In this document: positions 4,774 through 14,933 of the stretch, piece by piece | Numbering within the stretch: position 1 is the first letter of the stretch | How the letters are laid out: every line of letters starts with the position of its first letter | Source: Caldithrix abyssi DSM 13497 | GTDB lineage: Bacteria; Calditrichota; Calditrichia; Calditrichales; Calditrichaceae | Assembly: GCF_001886815.1 (NCBI RefSeq) | Contig: NZ_CP018099.1 | Span: 1,796,501-1,860,500 of the forward strand | Reading direction: 5' to 3' | DNA: 64,000 nt | The notes under the pieces: model-generated | The model's database searches: none | What the model was told of the DNA's origin: nothing | Seen by the model: the letters and a program-made list of their open reading frames with translations, nothing else | Translations under genes and position numbers: made by a program

Positions 4774-5217
4774 CTAAGGGGCGGTCTTGCGCAGTTTAAG
4801 ATTGTTCTTTCCCACATAAATTGCGTTGTTCAGTCCGAATAGTTTGCGAATAATAATCGGCGACAGATAATCCGTAACCGGCAGATGAATGTGATTAAAG
4901 GGAAAATCGGAGTTCATTAACATGATGGATTCACTATCGTTATATTCAATATGGTAGTTTTTTTTACGAAACAATTCAATTAATTTATCGCTGGATAACC
5001 TATTAAACTTAATACGCACATCAAAAATGGGTTTGTCCGCTCCTGTTGGAAAGGGTTGATTACGTTCCTGGCAAAAATGTTTTAACAAAGACAGGGCCTT
5101 TTTTAAGCGTTGATCTAAAACTTCCTTTGAAGGGGCCTGCACATACACACCCGGTACATTTTCACAATAGGCCACGTATGAACGACCGTCAAATTCTTTT
5201 TTGACGATGATCTTCAT
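4774..5217 (-). CDS. HicB-HicA-like fusion protein
   Basis: A 147-residue protein that looks like a HicB antitoxin-type fold (about 1-55: YVAYCENVPGVYVQAPSKE) joined to a HicA-type double-stranded-RNA-binding fold (about 70-135: LSSDKLIELFRKKNYHIEY, then HIHLPVTDYLSPIIIRKLFG). In classical HicA the toxin needs a His in a G-S-H-like turn; here that turn reads NDSESIMLM, so the catalytic His appears absent. HicA and HicB are normally separate genes, with the toxin first. Here they share one chain in the reverse order, so it may be an inactive regulator or RNA-binding protein. The assignment rests on motif recognition only. Confidence 0.55.
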   Translation of the reverse strand: MKIIVKKEFDGRSYVAYCENVPGVYVQAPSKEVLDQRLKKALSLLKHFCQERNQPFPTGADKPIFDVRIKFNRLSSDKLIELFRKKNYHIEYNDSESIMLMNSDFPFNHIHLPVTDYLSPIIIRKLFGLNNAIYVGKNNLKLRKTAP

Positions 5218-5287
5218 GCTATGATTCCAATCTTAAATAAACAAAATTTTATTTATAAATATAGGCAAGAAAGTTTAAAGAATCAAT

Positions 5288-6508
5288 TCATTCGGGCAAT
5301 TCCCTTGCCCCCAACAGTTCATCAATCCTTTTGTAATTGTCTGGCATCTTCTCACCGGAATGTAAATCTCTGATTAATGAATCCAGTTTAAGGGCGAGTT
5401 TGGTTTCCTGTTCACCAATAACGCCATTTTTTTGTAGGAGCGCCATATAATGGTTTACATTTTTTAATTGCGTGATATTCCCTGGCCAGTCTTGCCGCTG
5501 TAAAAGTTGTATGGCCTGTTCGCTCACCTTCTCGATTTTTATTCCCAGGCTCCGGCTTTCGAGATCGATAAAATGGTTGACTAACAGAGGAATATCTTCC
5601 ACTCTTTCACGAAGCGCAGGAATTTTAATGGTAAAATTAGCCAGTAAATGGAACAGTTCCGATAAAAAGGCATCCTGTTCGACCAGCGCTTTAAGGTCTA
5701 TAGAAGAAGAAGCGATGAATCGTACGTCATTTTTAACCATGGGCAACGCTGGATTGGAATTGAAAAAGTTTTGATGTAAAAAATTGACCAGATATTTTTG
5801 AGCGGCCAGGTTCAGATTGTGGATTTCCCGTAAAAACAGGGTGCCGCCTCTGGCCTGCTCAAACAAATTTTTGTACAACGCATTAAGCGCGGCCTCGTCC
5901 GATTCAGTCTGCAATTCGCAATCATGCGCTACAAAGGGCAAATATTTTCGCTGGCCATTGTAATGCAATAATTTAGCGATCAATTCCTTGCCCGTCCCTT
6001 TTTCGCCCAGAATTAACAAACGTTCCGGAGTGTCGGAAGCTTCAGACAGGATTCTCAGAGCTTCAGATAAGGTATTCCCCAGCCCAACGGTAGAGATGTT
6101 TCGCTTTAACTCGTCAACAAGGCTCTGGTTTAATCTGGAAATTTTCCGCAATTCAAGGGCATGATTGAGCGTAATTATCAACCGTTCAAGGTCTATGGGT
6201 TTTTCCAGATAGTCGTAAGCGCCAGCCTCAATCCATTCGTGGGCCGCTTCAATAACCGAACTTCCGGAAATCAGGATCACGGGGATCTCCGCCCTTTTCT
6301 TTTTGATTTCTTTTAAAATGGCCAGGCCGTCTATTTGCTGCCCCAATACCATATCAACCAGAACCACGTCCCACTCGCTCTGCAGGGCGTATTCCAACCC
6401 CCGGTAAGCGTTTGTCTCATACTCAATATAATAATTTTTCAGTTCCAGCGATTTTTTAATTTGTTCACAATAAGCCTCATTATCATCGATTAAAAGAATC
6501 TTAAACAT
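5288..6508 (-). CDS. NtrC-like response regulator, degenerate AAA+ domain
   Basis: 406 residues. A receiver domain at 1-120 (LLIDDNEAY, phospho-acceptor in VVLVDMVLG, ISGSS, EKPID) is followed by a sigma-54-activator-type AAA+ module (about 140-380). Walker A is present (GEKGTGKEL). The GAFTGA loop that contacts sigma-54 is missing: the expected region reads QTESDEAALNALYKNLFEQA. Walker B reads GGTLFLREI instead of LDEI. No Fis-type DNA-binding helix-turn-helix follows; the protein ends shortly after the AAA+ lid. Hence it probably does not activate sigma-54 promoters in the normal way. Its start overlaps the end of the kinase-like gene by 8 bases, suggesting translational coupling. Confidence 0.8.
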   Translation of the reverse strand: MFKILLIDDNEAYCEQIKKSLELKNYYIEYETNAYRGLEYALQSEWDVVLVDMVLGQQIDGLAILKEIKKKRAEIPVILISGSSVIEAAHEWIEAGAYDYLEKPIDLERLIITLNHALELRKISRLNQSLVDELKRNISTVGLGNTLSEALRILSEASDTPERLLILGEKGTGKELIAKLLHYNGQRKYLPFVAHDCELQTESDEAALNALYKNLFEQARGGTLFLREIHNLNLAAQKYLVNFLHQNFFNSNPALPMVKNDVRFIASSSIDLKALVEQDAFLSELFHLLANFTIKIPALRERVEDIPLLVNHFIDLESRSLGIKIEKVSEQAIQLLQRQDWPGNITQLKNVNHYMALLQKNGVIGEQETKLALKLDSLIRDLHSGEKMPDNYKRIDELLGARELPE

Positions 6509-7136
6509 CCAGAGTTTCCTCCAGCTTGGGATTAAACGATACGATTAAAGATTGATCAGAATCCGAGGCTCTGGATTCGATCAATTCAATATTCAAATAT
6601 TCGGCCAAAATTTTAAGAATTAAATTATTAACAGAAAGAACGATATCGTCTGAGTTCAATAGCGCTTTCTTTTGCTCCGCCTCATTCTTTTTAAATTCAA
6701 AGATAAGGCGCGACAAAACTTCATCGCTTTCGACTTCTATTCGGGAACAGTTTTTAAATTTATCAAGAAGAGTCTCCAAAAACCATTGAAAGGCCAGCGG
6801 ATCGGTTTTAACAATCAGGCTGATTTTATTATTTTTTAACGAAATTTTCTCTTTACCCAAAGGTATCTCTAACAGAACCTGCGCCACATTGATTTGCTTA
6901 AAACGCTTTTGGTTATTGCGCGTTAAAATGAGAATACGCGACAGGGAGTGCACGGTGTTCTTTAAATTTTGCTGAATCACGCCAATAAATTCTTTAGACT
7001 GCTTTTTTTGCTGAGGGGAAAGGTTAAAATCGTTTAATAAATAGTTTAAATTTGCTACCGCAAGCTGTAATGTGGCTAATTCGTTTTTTACTTTGTGGAT
7101 TAAACGATTGATTAAAAAATCACGATCTGTATTCAT
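6501..7136 (-). CDS. Histidine-kinase-like protein, degenerate
   Basis: About 211 residues, apparently cytoplasmic, with no membrane segment. A DHp-like helix carries LIHKVKNELATLQLAVANLN, resembling the phospho-acceptor H-box of sensor kinases. The C-terminal half resembles an HATPase fold in outline (DPLAFQWFLETLLDKF where an N-box is expected; LILKILAEYLNIELIES where the GLGLAI helix is expected), but the Asn of the N-box and the glycine-rich lids are not visible. It may be a phosphotransfer or docking partner for the next gene, which it overlaps by 8 bases. I prefer ATG 7136 because AGGA sits about 7 bases upstream; ATG 7142 is the alternative. Confidence 0.6.
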   Translation of the reverse strand: MNTDRDFLINRLIHKVKNELATLQLAVANLNYLLNDFNLSPQQKKQSKEFIGVIQQNLKNTVHSLSRILILTRNNQKRFKQINVAQVLLEIPLGKEKISLKNNKISLIVKTDPLAFQWFLETLLDKFKNCSRIEVESDEVLSRLIFEFKKNEAEQKKALLNSDDIVLSVNNLILKILAEYLNIELIESRASDSDQSLIVSFNPKLEETLDV

Positions 7137-7327
7137 GTGCATCCTGCCCTGTTATCCTTGCGCTCACTCTAACTTACGTGTAGCTCTGTTCATTTTTATG
7201 ATTAAGCGCAAAATTTCTTTATCAATTTTAAGAAATGCTCGTTCCGATTGCAAAACAAAAATAATCTGGCAAAGTATGAAAAAAATCGATAAAATTAAAG
7301 TTTTATGGTTGAAGGGCAGGAGTTCGG

Positions 7328-8834: not shown

Positions 8835-9089
8835 ATGAAAACGACGATCACCATTTGTCTGGGAAGCTCGTGTTTTACGCGGGGCAATAATAATGTCTTA
8901 AAGATTATTCAGGAGTATATTAAAGAAAATGAATTAGAAGATACAGTGGTACTACACGGGTCTTTATGCGAAGACAAATGTAAACGCGGTCCCAACATAA
9001 AAATTGGCGAAAGTGAATATAGCGAGGTTGACCCTGGCAGTGTCATTGATATTTTAAACCACCATTTTGGAAGTAAAAGAAAATGCTAA
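8835..9089 (+). CDS. Small thioredoxin-like [2Fe-2S] ferredoxin (NuoE/HndA-like)
   Basis: 84 residues with the fold and four cysteines of the 24-kDa/NuoE C-terminal domain: C8 and C13 (ICLGSSC), C45 and C49 (GSLCEDKCKRGPN). It should bind one [2Fe-2S] cluster and pass electrons to or from the hydrogenase encoded next. Its end overlaps the start of that gene by 7 bases, so they are translationally coupled. Hfs-type hydrogenase operons start with a gene of this kind (from memory). The ribosome site is weak (GGGG about 11 bases upstream). Confidence 0.8.
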   Translation: MKTTITICLGSSCFTRGNNNVLKIIQEYIKENELEDTVVLHGSLCEDKCKRGPNIKIGESEYSEVDPGSVIDILNHHFGSKRKC

Positions 9090-9982
9090 AGAGTTATTAT
9101 CCTATTTATACGGAAGAATCTGCGTGCCAGGACTGCTATAAATGCGTACGCGAATGCCCTGTTAAAGCCATTAAAATTGAGGGAGGGCATGCAGAAATCA
9201 TTCAGGAATTGTGCATTTTATGCGGTCGTTGCGTTCAGGTATGCCCGATTTCTGCCAAAAAAATACGGAACGATATTAACCGAGTAAAGCAGCTGTTAAA
9301 GCTCAAAGAAAAAGTGATGGTATCGCTGGCGCCTTCTTTTATTAGCGAGTTTCAAGACATTGCGCCTGAACAACTCATTGCCGGTCTGAAAAAACTGGGA
9401 TTCTATGGCGTATCAGAAACGGCATTGGGAGCCGAGCAGGTTTCGGCTGCTTCCGCCCATCTCTTTGAATCGTCATCGCAGCCGATCATGATTTCATCAG
9501 CCTGTCCTACCGTTGTGGAATTTATTACCAAATACCAAACAGACCTGGCAAAATACATTACCGGTCTTTATTCTCCTTTGCTGGCGCATTGTAAACTGTT
9601 AAGAAATATCTATGGCCATGATATTGGAATTGTTTTTGTCGGCCCCTGTATTTCAAAAAAATACGAGGCCGATACACATTCTGATTTATTAAATATTTCC
9701 ATCACTTTTAAATATTTAAAACAGTGGTTTGAACAGGAAAATATTGTGCTTGCAGAACTGAAACCGGACAAATCCGATGTTTTTATTCCTCATAAAGCTC
9801 AGGAAGGAGCGCTTTATCCTGTTGACGGCGGCATGATTGCAGGGATTAAAGCCAATTGCAATGTAATTACTCCGAATTTTATAAGTATTTCTGGCATAGG
9901 GAATATAAAAAAAGCGCTGGAAAATTTAGAAGACTCTGAAACAGGGCACAAAATATTTTTGGCTCTACTGGGATTTTTGTGA
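9083..9982 (+). CDS. Sensory [FeFe]-hydrogenase, 5' fragment
   Basis: 299 codons as they now stand; the last 7 codons come from the IS end. Two [4Fe-4S] motifs fill about residues 10-60 (CQDCYKCVRECP and CILCGRCVQVCP). The H-domain follows with motif 1 as SSACP (often TSCCP in catalytic enzymes) and motif 2 as GPCISKKYEAD. Motif 3 is missing because of the insertion, so a normal H-cluster cannot be completed. The altered motif 1 fits the sensory class. The fragment may be expressed but is unlikely to be a working hydrogenase. Confidence 0.85.
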   Translation: MLKSYYPIYTEESACQDCYKCVRECPVKAIKIEGGHAEIIQELCILCGRCVQVCPISAKKIRNDINRVKQLLKLKEKVMVSLAPSFISEFQDIAPEQLIAGLKKLGFYGVSETALGAEQVSAASAHLFESSSQPIMISSACPTVVEFITKYQTDLAKYITGLYSPLLAHCKLLRNIYGHDIGIVFVGPCISKKYEADTHSDLLNISITFKYLKQWFEQENIVLAELKPDKSDVFIPHKAQEGALYPVDGGMIAGIKANCNVITPNFISISGIGNIKKALENLEDSETGHKIFLALLGFL

Positions 9983-11248
9983 AAAACAAAAATAATCCTT
10001 AGATTGAGTTTATGAAAGATAAAGAATTATTTAAACAGATTTTGGGACTTTCGCATCCCTGGGAAGTTTCTAAAGTTGACTTAGATATTGCGAATGAGGA
10101 AGTAGAAATAGAGATTATCTATAAGTCAAAAAAAGGTTTTTGTCCCGAATGCGAAGTGGAATATGATATTTATGATCACCGCGAAAAACGTCGTTGGCGG
10201 CATTTGGATACATGCCAAATGAAGACCTATATTGTCTGCAAAGTACCCCGCATTAAATGCAAGGAACATGGAGTAAAAACGATCAAAGTACCTTGGGCAG
10301 AAAAGTCGAGTCGAACGACTTTATTATTTGAACGTTTTGCTATTGAGTTATTACTGGCCTCCAAGAACCAGAGCAAAACGGCACAATTTTTACGGATCAG
10401 CTTTGATATGCTTCATCATATAATGAGCAAAGCAGTGGAACGCGGGCTATCACGCCGAACGGAAGAGGACATTAAATATATCGGGATAGATGAGAAGAGT
10501 ATGAAAAGAGGTCATACTTATGTAAGCGTATTATCCGATAGTGAAAGAAGACGTGTAATAGATGTAAGTGAAGGTCGCACAACAAGCTCTGCCAGTTCGT
10601 TAATAAACAAGGGATTAACAGAGAAACAAAAGGAGGGCCTCAAAGCGGTCAGTATGGATATGTGGAAAGCTTTTATTAAAGCTGTTCAAAAGGAGCTTCC
10701 CAATGCTTCCATAGTGCATGACAAATTTCATATAATGAAGTATTTAAATGATGGAGTGGATAAAACCAGACGAGAGGAAGCCCGTAAATTACAAAAATCT
10801 AATGATAAAACCTTAGTGAAAAGTAAATATTTATTTTTAAAGAATCTGGAAAATATGACGGACAAGCAATTATCGCGTTTCAGAAAAATTCAAGAACTTA
10901 ACCTTATCACTTCCCAGGCTTGGGCGGCCAAAGAGAACTTCAAAGAATTCTTTAGGAGTGAAACAATAAATGATGCGAAATTTTTTTTTGCGGAATGGTA
11001 TCAGGATATTAAGGAACGTTCTTTAAATAAAATGATTAAAGTAGCAAAAATGCTCATTGCTCATTCAGATGGCTTATTAAACTATATAAGATATCAGATA
11101 GATAATTCAGTAGCCGAATGGTTGAACGGCAAGATACAGGAGATAAAAACAGTTGGTAGAGGCTTTAGAAAATTTGAAAATTTTAGGATAGCAATACTTT
11201 TCTTTCTTGGTAAATTAGACCTTTTTCCACAGGAATCCCAGTAGAGCC
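9961..11248 (+). mobile_element. ISL3-like insertion sequence, copy 1
   Basis: 1288 bp with terminal inverted repeats GGCTCTACTGGGATT on the left and the exact complement on the right; imperfect similarity continues inward. It is flanked by a perfect 8-bp duplication ATATTTTT (9953-9960 and 11249-11256), the length typical of ISL3 elements. It carries a single transposase gene on the plus strand and sits in the same orientation as the host operon. Confidence 0.95.
10012..11244 (+). CDS. ISL3-family transposase, copy 1
   Basis: 410 residues. The N-terminal part has a zinc-finger-like region (CPECEVEY with further cysteines at about 65-83) and the DDE domain follows: Asp in YIGIDEKS, Asp in VSMDMWKAF, and a C-terminal NSVAEWLNGKIQEIK that corresponds to the family's Glu region, followed by GRGFRKFENF. 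It looks intact. It differs from the copy at 36321 by only two residues (L/P in KNLEN versus KNPEN, E/G in IKERS versus IKGRS). Confidence 0.93.
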   Translation: MKDKELFKQILGLSHPWEVSKVDLDIANEEVEIEIIYKSKKGFCPECEVEYDIYDHREKRRWRHLDTCQMKTYIVCKVPRIKCKEHGVKTIKVPWAEKSSRTTLLFERFAIELLLASKNQSKTAQFLRISFDMLHHIMSKAVERGLSRRTEEDIKYIGIDEKSMKRGHTYVSVLSDSERRRVIDVSEGRTTSSASSLINKGLTEKQKEGLKAVSMDMWKAFIKAVQKELPNASIVHDKFHIMKYLNDGVDKTRREEARKLQKSNDKTLVKSKYLFLKNLENMTDKQLSRFRKIQELNLITSQAWAAKENFKEFFRSETINDAKFFFAEWYQDIKERSLNKMIKVAKMLIAHSDGLLNYIRYQIDNSVAEWLNGKIQEIKTVGRGFRKFENFRIAILFFLGKLDLFPQESQ

Positions 11249-11256
11249 ATATTTTT

Positions 11257-12094
11257 AGAGCTCTTAGCGTGTGAAGGCGGATGTATAAACGGCCCGATGA
11301 GCAAAAACAATTCACAAACGGTACTGAAAAGAATAAAGGTGATCAATTATGCCGAATATCCTGCTGGCCAGATTCCACGGAAAGCGGAAATAGATATTCG
11401 CGAAGAGATTAGCGTTCAAGAAGTAACGCAGAATATTTATGGCGAAAGTGAAATACGGCAGGCCTTACAGATTGTTGGCAAACACACTTCCGAAGATGAG
11501 TTAAATTGCGGCGCCTGCGGCTACAACTCCTGTCGGGAATTTGCCGCGGCTCTTCTGGAAGGTAAAGCCGAACAACCAATGTGCGTTTCTTATATGCGAA
11601 AATTGGCGCAACGCAAGGCCAACGCCTTAATAAAAACCATGCCGTCGGGTGTGGTCATTATTGATCAAGACCTGAGAATTATTGAATGTAATTACCTTTT
11701 TGCACAAATGATGGGCGAAGAGACAAAACAAATTTATGAAGTACAACCCGGGTTGGTCGGCGCTAATTTTAGAAAAATTTTCCCACACAGTGAATTATTC
11801 AGCGAAGTTCTGGAAACAGGTAAAGACATCAGTAATAAAAAAATAACATTAAAAAATTCGGTTCTTTCCGTTTCGATTTTTACCATCGAAGAGAACAAAA
11901 TTGTCGGCGGAATCTTTGAGGACATTACCACGACCACTGTTAAAAAAGATATGATCGTGCAAAAATCAAAAGATGTAATCAAAAAGAACCTGGAAACCGT
12001 TCAAAAGATCGCCTATCTTTTAGGGGAAAACGCGTCTGAAACGGAGATAATTTTAAACTCGATCATTGATGGATTTGAAAATGACGAAGAATGA
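11257..12094 (+). CDS. Sensory [FeFe]-hydrogenase, 3' fragment (Fes + PAS)
   Basis: The 3' part of the split gene. The first codons give ELLACEGGCINGP, the lost H-cluster motif 3. Then come a Fes-type [4Fe-4S] domain (CGACGYNSCREFA with a later Cys in QPMCVSYM) and a PAS domain (about 340 bases onward; VVIIDQDLRIIECN). A protein could start at ATG 11297, though no ribosome site precedes it; it would hold only the Fes and PAS parts. The end overlaps the phosphatase start. Confidence 0.8.
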
Positions 12095-13274
12095 TGAATA
12101 TTTTTTTGATGTGGATTTTTTTCAGAGGTGCAAACATCATCAAATGGCGCCTGGCGATGTTTTCTTTCTTAAAAAGCGAAAAACCGACGATCGTTTAATA
12201 GCGGTTTTATCGGACGGCCTGGGGAGCGGCATTAAGGCTAACGTTCTGGCTACGTTAACCGCAACCATGGCCTCCAATTTCATTTATAACAATTACGACA
12301 TAAAAAAGACGGCTCAACTTATTATGAGCACTTTGCCTGTTTGTAAGGTCAGAAAAATCAGTTATTCTACCATGAGCATTGTGGATATTCAGAGTAACGG
12401 GAAAGTAAAAATTGCTGAATATGATAATCCAGAATTCCTTTTATTTAAAAACGATCGCCCGGTAAACGTTAAAAAAGAAAAGGAAGAAATTAATGTAAAT
12501 AACGAAAAAAAGCTCTTTTACTTTTGTGAATTTAACTTTGAACCGGGCGACAGAATTATCATCTACTCCGATGGGGTTGTTCAATCTGGCATTGGGAAAC
12601 CGGCTTCTCCCCTGGGCTGGGGAGAAGATTCGGCTCAGGAATACATTCGCTCTATTTTACAGGCAGCCCCAAATATCTCTTCCAGAGAACTGGCCAGACA
12701 AGTCGTTTTTAAGGCCGTGCAAAATGATGACAACATTCCCAGAGATGACATTACCTGCGCAGTGGTCTATTTCAGAAAGCCGCGCAGACTTTTGTTAATT
12801 TCCGGACCTCCATTTGACAAAACAAAAGATTCTTACATCGCAGAACAGATTAAAAACTATCCGGGGAAAAAGATAATTTGCGGCGGCACCACGGCTAATA
12901 TTATAGCCAGGGAATTAAAGCGGGAAATAACAGTAAACTTAAATAACATGGATTATAGTCTGCCGCCTCCGTCCACTATGGAAGGCGTGGATTTAGTTAC
13001 CGAAGGCATTATGACGCTGGCCAAAGTAGCGGAACTGCTGGAAAAGCACGTCAATTTTGAAGTGCGCGGGGCCACAACGAATCCGGCGTTAGAAATCATC
13101 GACCTGTTATTGCAATCGGATATTATTCAATTTATTGTTGGCACGCGGATTAATGAATTCCACCAGAACCCTAACATGCCTGTGGAGTTAGGGATTAGAC
13201 GGAATGTCATCAAAAAAATTGCAAAGTTATTGGAAGAAAAATATTTCAAAAAAACAAAAATTGATTTTGTTTAA
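12069..13274 (+). CDS. SpoIIE-type serine phosphatase (HfsC-like)
   Basis: About 401 residues. Residues 1-245 form a PP2C/SpoIIE phosphatase with metal-binding motifs SDGLGSGIKANV, IIYSDGVVQSGIG and RDDITCAVVYF. A second domain follows (about 245-400: ISGPPFDKTKDSYIAE, ICGGTTANIIA), not recognised by name but seen with such phosphatases in hydrogenase operons. Such proteins would dephosphorylate a partner, so it is a plausible output for the PAS hydrogenase. The ATG at 12069 overlaps the upstream gene by 26 bases; ATG 12081 or TTG 12066 are alternatives. No DNA-binding domain is seen. Confidence 0.8.
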   Translation: MDLKMTKNDEYFFDVDFFQRCKHHQMAPGDVFFLKKRKTDDRLIAVLSDGLGSGIKANVLATLTATMASNFIYNNYDIKKTAQLIMSTLPVCKVRKISYSTMSIVDIQSNGKVKIAEYDNPEFLLFKNDRPVNVKKEKEEINVNNEKKLFYFCEFNFEPGDRIIIYSDGVVQSGIGKPASPLGWGEDSAQEYIRSILQAAPNISSRELARQVVFKAVQNDDNIPRDDITCAVVYFRKPRRLLLISGPPFDKTKDSYIAEQIKNYPGKKIICGGTTANIIARELKREITVNLNNMDYSLPPPSTMEGVDLVTEGIMTLAKVAELLEKHVNFEVRGATTNPALEIIDLLLQSDIIQFIVGTRINEFHQNPNMPVELGIRRNVIKKIAKLLEEKYFKKTKIDFV

Positions 13275-13309
13275 AATGAAAGTAAACCATTAATAAGAGA
13301 GAGTCGTTT

Positions 13310-13543
13310 ATGAAAATCACAGTTTGTGTGGGAACATATTGTCATTTAATGGGCAGCATGACATTATATAATTTTCTTGAGGATTATTTGAAAAGGCATC
13401 CCGATGCTTTTGAACTGGAAATGAGTAATTGCCTCGATGTGTGCAACCGCGAATCCTGCGAGGCTCCAATTTTAAAAATGGATGAGAAAATTTATTCTAA
13501 GATGTCTGTTGAAAAATTAAAAACCATTTTAAAGGAATTGTAG
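13310..13543 (+). CDS. Second small thioredoxin-like [2Fe-2S] protein
   Basis: 77 residues related to the first small protein: cysteines at VCVGTYC (C6 and C12 by eye), then a pair in NCLDVCNRESC. It likely holds one [2Fe-2S] cluster and serves the hydrogenase encoded 4 bases downstream. The extra Cys in NRESCEAP is unusual. A GA-rich stretch (AAGAGAGAG) about 8 bases before the ATG may serve as ribosome site. Confidence 0.72.
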   Translation: MKITVCVGTYCHLMGSMTLYNFLEDYLKRHPDAFELEMSNCLDVCNRESCEAPILKMDEKIYSKMSVEKLKTILKEL

Positions 13544-13547
13544 AGCC

Positions 13548-14933
13548 ATGCCTTACATAACAGAAGTTACGCTTTTAAAACGCAAAATTCTCTCTTTGAT
13601 CAGTGAGAAAATGTTTAACGGTACTCTGAAAGAGGATCTCCGTAATATTGCTTATATACTCATACCTGACGATACAAAACCGCTGAAGTGCTGTATCTAT
13701 TTTGACAGGGCGCTTACCAAACAAAAAATAAAACTGATATTGGGATTAGACCATATCAAATACAAAAACGTAGCCTGGTCTGACATTTATAATGACTTTG
13801 AAAAAAATAACGGTAAAGAGATACCGCTTATTACGGTGTTGCGCGACGCCTGCAACGGATGCCCGCAAAAACGCTATTATATAACGGAAGCCTGTCAACA
13901 CTGTCTGGCGCATCCATGCGTTTTGAACTGCCCCAAAAACGCCATTACCATTGAAAGCGACAGAGCCGTTATTGACGAAGAGAAATGTGTGAAATGCGGA
14001 ATCTGCGTCAAAATATGTCCGTTTAACGCCATCATTGAGGTGCATAAGCCCTGTGAATACGCCTGTCCAACCGGAGCCATTACAACAGACGAGAACAATA
14101 TTGCGGTAATCGATGAGGAAAAATGCATCTACTGCGGCCAGTGTATTATCGGCTGCCCTTTTGGCGCCATTGTTGAGAGAACGGATATTCTGCAAGTTAT
14201 TAAAAAAATCAAGGAAAATAAAAATTTAGTGGCTCTGGTGGCGCCTTCAGCGGTTGGCCAGTTTTCGCCCAAAGCAACCATGAAACAGTTGTGCACCGCC
14301 CTGAAATTGATTGGCTTCAAAAAAGTTTACGAGCTGGCTTATTTTGCCGATTTGATCGCCCGGGAAGAAGCCGCTGAGTTAAAAGAAAAAAAAGCAGAAA
14401 ACCAGACCTTAACCTCTTCGTGCTGTCCGGCGTGGGTGTATTTTGCCCGGAAGGGAAGAAAAAATTTTGCGAAAACACTGTCTAACGCATTAAGCCCGAT
14501 GGCCAGGGCCGCCGAAGCAAAAAAGGGCGATGAAATCTTTGTATTTATTGGCCCCTGTTTAAGTAAAAAGAGAGAAGCGGAAAGTACGGCCATCGATTAT
14601 GTTTTGACTTTTGAAGAACTGGCCTGCTTATTTACGGCTAAAAAAATTGACGTGCTCTCCTGCGAGGAATCTGAGTTTGATGTGGAAGGGCCCCGACCGG
14701 GAAGAATATTTGCTGTTTCGGGAGGCGTTACAGAAGCCATAAAACACTACGCTGGTACAGAATTTAACACAGAAAAAATAAATGGACTGGATAAAGATTC
14801 CATTAAATATTTGCAAAGATTAAAAGGTGTTGATTTTATAGAGGTTATGGCCTGCGAAAATGGTTGTATTGGCGGACCGTTTGTTGTAACCAATCCCAAA
14901 AGAACCGCTAAATTAATCGAAAATACGGAATAA
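13548..14933 (+). CDS. [FeFe]-hydrogenase with ferredoxin domains (HfsD/HydA-like)
   Basis: 461 residues. Cysteine-rich ferredoxin part at about 100-205 (CNGCPQKRYY, CQHCLAHPCVLNCP, CVKCGICVKICP, CEYACP, CIYCGQCIIGCP). The H-domain has all three motifs: SSCCPAWVYF, GPCLSKKREAE and FIEVMACENGCIGGP. Unlike the split gene it keeps all four H-cluster cysteines and looks catalytic. It likely belongs to the monomeric ferredoxin-linked class (group B by resemblance, not proved). The maturation genes hydE, hydF and hydG are not in the window. It is the last gene of the operon. Confidence 0.85.
   Translation: MPYITEVTLLKRKILSLISEKMFNGTLKEDLRNIAYILIPDDTKPLKCCIYFDRALTKQKIKLILGLDHIKYKNVAWSDIYNDFEKNNGKEIPLITVLRDACNGCPQKRYYITEACQHCLAHPCVLNCPKNAITIESDRAVIDEEKCVKCGICVKICPFNAIIEVHKPCEYACPTGAITTDENNIAVIDEEKCIYCGQCIIGCPFGAIVERTDILQVIKKIKENKNLVALVAPSAVGQFSPKATMKQLCTALKLIGFKKVYELAYFADLIAREEAAELKEKKAENQTLTSSCCPAWVYFARKGRKNFAKTLSNALSPMARAAEAKKGDEIFVFIGPCLSKKREAESTAIDYVLTFEELACLFTAKKIDVLSCEESEFDVEGPRPGRIFAVSGGVTEAIKHYAGTEFNTEKINGLDKDSIKYLQRLKGVDFIEVMACENGCIGGPFVVTNPKRTAKLIENTE

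Follow-up and report, generated by a model that had tools for sequence, protein, structure and literature searches.

The window, a 64,000-nucleotide stretch of the Caldithrix abyssi DSM 13497 genome, encodes a protein that carries a HicB-like and a HicA-like domain on one chain. Judged from sequence, it is probably a domesticated, catalytically dead HicBA, and it would most likely act in RNA binding or as an RNA/protein adaptor rather than as an addiction module or nuclease. Toxin and antidote are as a rule encoded by two genes, and whether toxin-antitoxin systems encoded on chromosomes are selfish or have been recruited for cell functions has long been argued. Of the 40 Calditrichota genomes in our search, most retain this protein, either fused or as two separate genes; our analysis thus suggests that in this phylum a selfish killer system became an everyday part of the cell. 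An apparently dead toxin and its antitoxin, held together under purifying selection through a bacterial lineage in split and fused sister clades, offer a concrete test case of what a toxin-antitoxin pair can do without the poison. Descendants of this kind are largely invisible to Pfam-level annotation.

HicB-like and HicA-like domains on one chain

The gene lies on the minus strand (Table 1), and its open reading frame is as the sequence-only reading had described it. Scans of the window protein as a single sequence against Pfam, NCBIfam and PADLOC revealed neither HicA nor HicB, so that standard annotation would overlook it. A PDB sequence search, either with the single sequence or with the family alignment (A1), returned no HicA and only a weak HicB-like match, TTHA1756. 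An all-species scan with one sequence as query retrieved close relatives only, and searches of phage, plasmid and viral sequences found no relatives. Matches to CagE_TrbE_VirB in Pfam (E 0.025) and to a DNA-binding family in PHROG (E 0.31) were not significant and received no backing from the AlphaFold model. A chance open reading frame or a pseudogene is ruled out by 20 single-copy family members and by purifying selection.

Table 1 Features of the fused gene and its upstream region, in window positions.
Feature	Position	Strand	Basis
Fused HicB-HicA-like CDS	4774..5217	minus	ORF, ATG start, 147 aa
HicB-like domain, residues 1-60, βββ-α of partial RNase H fold	5038..5217	minus	structure matches and profiles
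HicA-like domain, residues 70-131, α-βββ-α	4825..5010	minus	structure matches and profiles
Place of canonical HicA Gly-Ser-His, here Ser95-Glu96-Ser97	4927..4935	minus	alignment with canonical same-phylum HicAs
Family signature FPFxR/H, residues 105-109 (FPFNH), β2-β3 turn	4891..4905	minus	alignment
Predicted sigma-70 promoter TTGATT-17-TATATT	5258..5286	minus	promoter prediction

An AlphaFold2 model computed from a 20-sequence alignment reached a pLDDT of 90.6 and a pTM of 0.84. The best structure matches of the N-terminal domain were the HicB antitoxins 2dsy, 6u0i and 6hpb (Z 4.4-4.7), those of the C-terminal domain the HicA toxins 1whz (Z 4.5), 4p78_C (4.4) and 5yrz_B (4.1). As the Z values of the full-length model are modest, both domains were checked further. 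When the C-domain was modelled alone, only HicA-fold chains exceeded a Z of 6 (1whz 7.2, 5yrz_B 6.5 and 6g26_F 6.4), with the next unrelated structure at 3.9. Moreover, profile-profile comparison to canonical proteins of the same phylum matched the N-domain to HicB (98.3%, E 1.3e-14) and the C-domain to HicA (95.2%, E 2.6e-8), while the crossed controls, C-domain against HicB and N-domain against HicA, gave about 0%. The two halves of the family profile, run over the 40 genomes, also matched adjacent ordinary hicB and hicA genes, such as the pair at G004:C75 (6.1e-9 and 5.7e-6) and that at G000:C1:2775008-2775405, whose HicA lies over the Pfam cut-off. Among the 20 fused members, seven showed a weak match to HicB_lk_antitox; neither the 20 fused members nor the split loci described below passed the Pfam HicA cut-off (PF07927). 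The N-domain thus combines the partial RNase H fold of HicB antitoxins with their sequence profile, and the C-domain has a dsRBD-like fold and a sequence related to HicA. The model, the structure matches and the controlled profile comparisons bear out the order that had been proposed from the letters, HicB and then HicA, and both folds appear in the predicted structure.

The sequence-only reading had set the fusion against the usual two-gene arrangement. The fusion is real, but it is not unprecedented: fused HicBA proteins form Class 12 in the main text of Gerdes 2024 mBio (PMC10865869). By architecture, a single gene with a small HicB domain followed by HicA, our protein belongs to this class, and its size and domain boundaries are similar to those of MBI3260764.1 (HicA at aa 74-127). 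In contrast to the present family, Class 12 proteins are proposed there as possibly active, phage-triggered toxins; that main text mentions neither active-site loss nor vertical inheritance throughout a lineage, nor does it name Calditrichota, although members may overlap. CapRel-SJ46 and EzeT likewise unite the functions of toxin and antitoxin in a single chain (as treated in the same text, PMC10865869), but their toxin domains are active enzymes of other families, whereas the catalytic residues are gone in the Calditrichota protein. Canonical Class 2 hicBA, such as the G000 pair named above, shares the gene order and both folds and is detected by the same profile, but consists of two genes, keeps GSH and VPxH intact and lacks the FPF turn. 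As far as we found, supplements aside, no one has described a HicBA lineage that is disarmed, passed on vertically and represented by both split and fused stages.

Replacement of the catalytic motif

In characterised HicAs, a Gly and the His two residues on are required for toxicity (Gly22/His24 and Gly26/His28; PMC11594946). E. coli HicA proved too divergent to serve as reference for the His column: its match was not significant, and the alignment was shifted by one column; we therefore used canonical HicAs of the same phylum (12 pairs, Calditrichota only). Their aligned motif is GSH, with the His present in 11 of the 12. The window copy has Ser97 in this column, which agrees with the earlier claim that the toxin His is missing. 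Fused members carry Ser (12), His (3), Phe (3), Val (1) or Leu (1) there, split members Val (7) or Ile (4), and the Gly is kept in 1 of the 31 family members. A second His (column 115), found in 12/12 canonical proteins, is absent from all 20 fused members and kept in 1 of 11 split ones. No His is conserved in every family member; three members of one genus (G016-G018, g12) do have His in the His column, outside any GSH context. The catalytic His with its Gly is thus lost across nearly the whole family, in fused and split forms alike. All 31 members instead share [FY]PF-x-[RH], which is absent from canonical HicAs. In a separate lineage, L034 (G025:C51:83114-83281) encodes a HicA that is over the Pfam cut-off and has RGAIQVYF without GSH, possibly another disarmed HicA.

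Both halves of the protein are constrained, the C-domain as much as the N-domain, with dN/dS of 0.04-0.14 wherever synonymous sites are unsaturated. The pI is about 9.5 in most members; the C-domain of G009 has a pI of 6.5, so a basic face for RNA binding is not common to all of them.

Distribution, descent and genomic setting

The search covered 40 Calditrichota genomes, 24 from families f1-f3 and 16 from f4-f6, including the host genome (G000; a single contig of 4.98 Mb). The fused gene is present in 20 of the 24 f1-f3 genomes, one copy in each, and the family search called for earlier thus yielded 19 relatives beyond the window genome (24-76% identity with the window's copy along its length). 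A two-gene version occurs in 11 of the 16 f4-f6 genomes, where a hicB-like ORF overlaps a hicA-like ORF by 8-35 nt or lies 4-10 nt from it; these hicA-like ORFs lack GSH and have FPFxR. The hicB stop and the hicA-like start are -35 to +10 nt apart, and in each of the 11 pairs (L101-L111, in G024-G036) this distance is congruent to 1 modulo 3, which may reflect common ancestry without frame-changing indels. Neither form occurs in G004 (98% complete) and several other genomes, so the gene is not essential to all. The distribution of the fused gene follows taxonomic family, whereas canonical pairs in the same genomes are patchy. Rather than a mobile, patchy two-protein addiction pair of type II, we find a single-copy gene for one chain.

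In a tree of the concatenated domains, the fused set forms one clade (support 100/95), the split set another (99/95), and the two group together against the sampled canonical hicBA pairs (99/99). Since these sister clades both lack GSH, hicBA was probably disarmed before the fusion, and the disarmed lineage was probably inherited vertically. The simplest history by parsimony is disarming followed by a single fusion. A fused ancestor that later split could also have given this tree, since the order is read by parsimony against canonical outgroups that have two genes. The earlier suggestion of domestication is well borne out by the single copy, the vertical descent, the purifying selection and the loss of GSH in both forms.

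Synteny is conserved within clades. In most f1-f3 genomes the fused gene and lptB, part of an lptC-lptA-lptB operon, meet tail to tail, and a hybrid histidine kinase often stands beside the fused gene; the split pair of most f4-f5 genomes adjoins a SpoU methylase, often with a hybrid kinase too. Apart from these loosely linked kinases, no partner gene is common to both clades, and no defence genes were recognised among the annotated neighbours. In the window's genus the fused gene adjoins an NtrC-like regulator. This sigma-54 activator (5288-6508) and an upstream 213-aa partner without Pfam match (6501-7142) form a pair that adjoins the fused gene in this genus only. Farther along the window, ferredoxin-like, Fe-S/hydrogenase-like and PP2C-like ORFs cluster by eye at 8835-14933, interrupted by a transposase-like ORF (10012-11244).

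Upstream of the gene, most orthologues have a predicted near-consensus sigma-70 promoter: 17 of 19 regions combine TTGA[CT] with a TATATT-like hexamer at a spacing of 17-18 nt, placed about 28-51 nt ahead of the start, and the predicted -35 element of the orthologues is usually TTGACA/T. The set has a mean score of 10.2 against 8.4 in shuffles, and none of 200 shuffled sets scored as high; the window's own predicted promoter is among the weaker ones and, taken alone, does not exceed shuffles. No conserved palindromic operator was seen in these upstream regions.

A proposed non-toxic adaptor and its alternatives

A coherent account would begin with the capture of a chromosomal hicBA pair by the ancestor of the sampled Calditrichota families. 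The alignment shows that HicA in this lineage no longer has the Gly and His on which toxicity depends, nor the second conserved His, and that it has gained the FPFxR turn. By parsimony, f4-f6 would have kept two genes that overlap or abut, and in f1-f3 the two would have become one. The predicted promoter points to constitutive expression of a mostly basic, presumably non-toxic product, its HicB-like domain covalently tied to the HicA-like one, and this product would work by way of its HicA/dsRBD-like surface and the new turn. While the catalytic residues were lost, selection would have kept both folds, their packing and this turn. Because the protein is basic and one half is dsRBD-like, our leading guess is that it binds RNA or serves as an RNA/protein adaptor. 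We put forward more tentatively that it is a housekeeping RNA-binding protein across Calditrichota, derived from a toxin-antitoxin system disarmed first and fused second, with both stages living in different families.

The protein might instead be a chromosomal antidote or decoy against incoming HicA, with the dead HicA half as stabiliser or placeholder. The HicB domain is well conserved, canonical hicBA pairs occur in the host and several related genomes, and chromosomal anti-addiction has been discussed for toxin-antitoxin systems (PMC2701414). Yet a Pfam HicA over the cut-off is found in only 12 of 31 carriers, compared with 5 of 9 non-carriers. With 19 of the 31 carriers thus lacking one, a figure that is suggestive only as several of these genomes are incomplete drafts, the fused or split protein does not track resident HicA toxins, which weakens the antidote reading. 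Moreover, the C-domain, no less constrained than the N-domain, has a new motif of its own, and a dead HicA on the HicB face would compete with the incoming toxin. We consider this role unlikely.

Quite unlikely, in our judgement, is a structural adaptor whose two domains serve protein-protein contacts with no role for RNA, even though the invariant positions are mostly the hydrophobic FPF turn and Pro/Ser positions rather than basic residues, HicB proteins oligomerise (PMC11594946), and the domains are predicted to pack confidently against each other; the basic pI of most members and the dsRBD-like fold favour nucleic acid, and the neighbourhoods supply no shared partner beyond the loosely linked kinases.

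Least likely is an active RNase or toxin that uses other residues, is under cis regulation by the HicB domain fused to it, as in CapRel-like fused defence systems, and is released by phage infection: such a mechanism is put forward for the Class 11-13 fusions in the main text of Gerdes 2024 (PMC10865869), the g12 members have their His and the HicA fold is predicted to be intact, but no defence gene was recognised among the neighbours that were annotated, the family has no invariant His, the required Gly and His (PMC11594946) are gone in nearly all members, and the gene is single-copy and vertically inherited.
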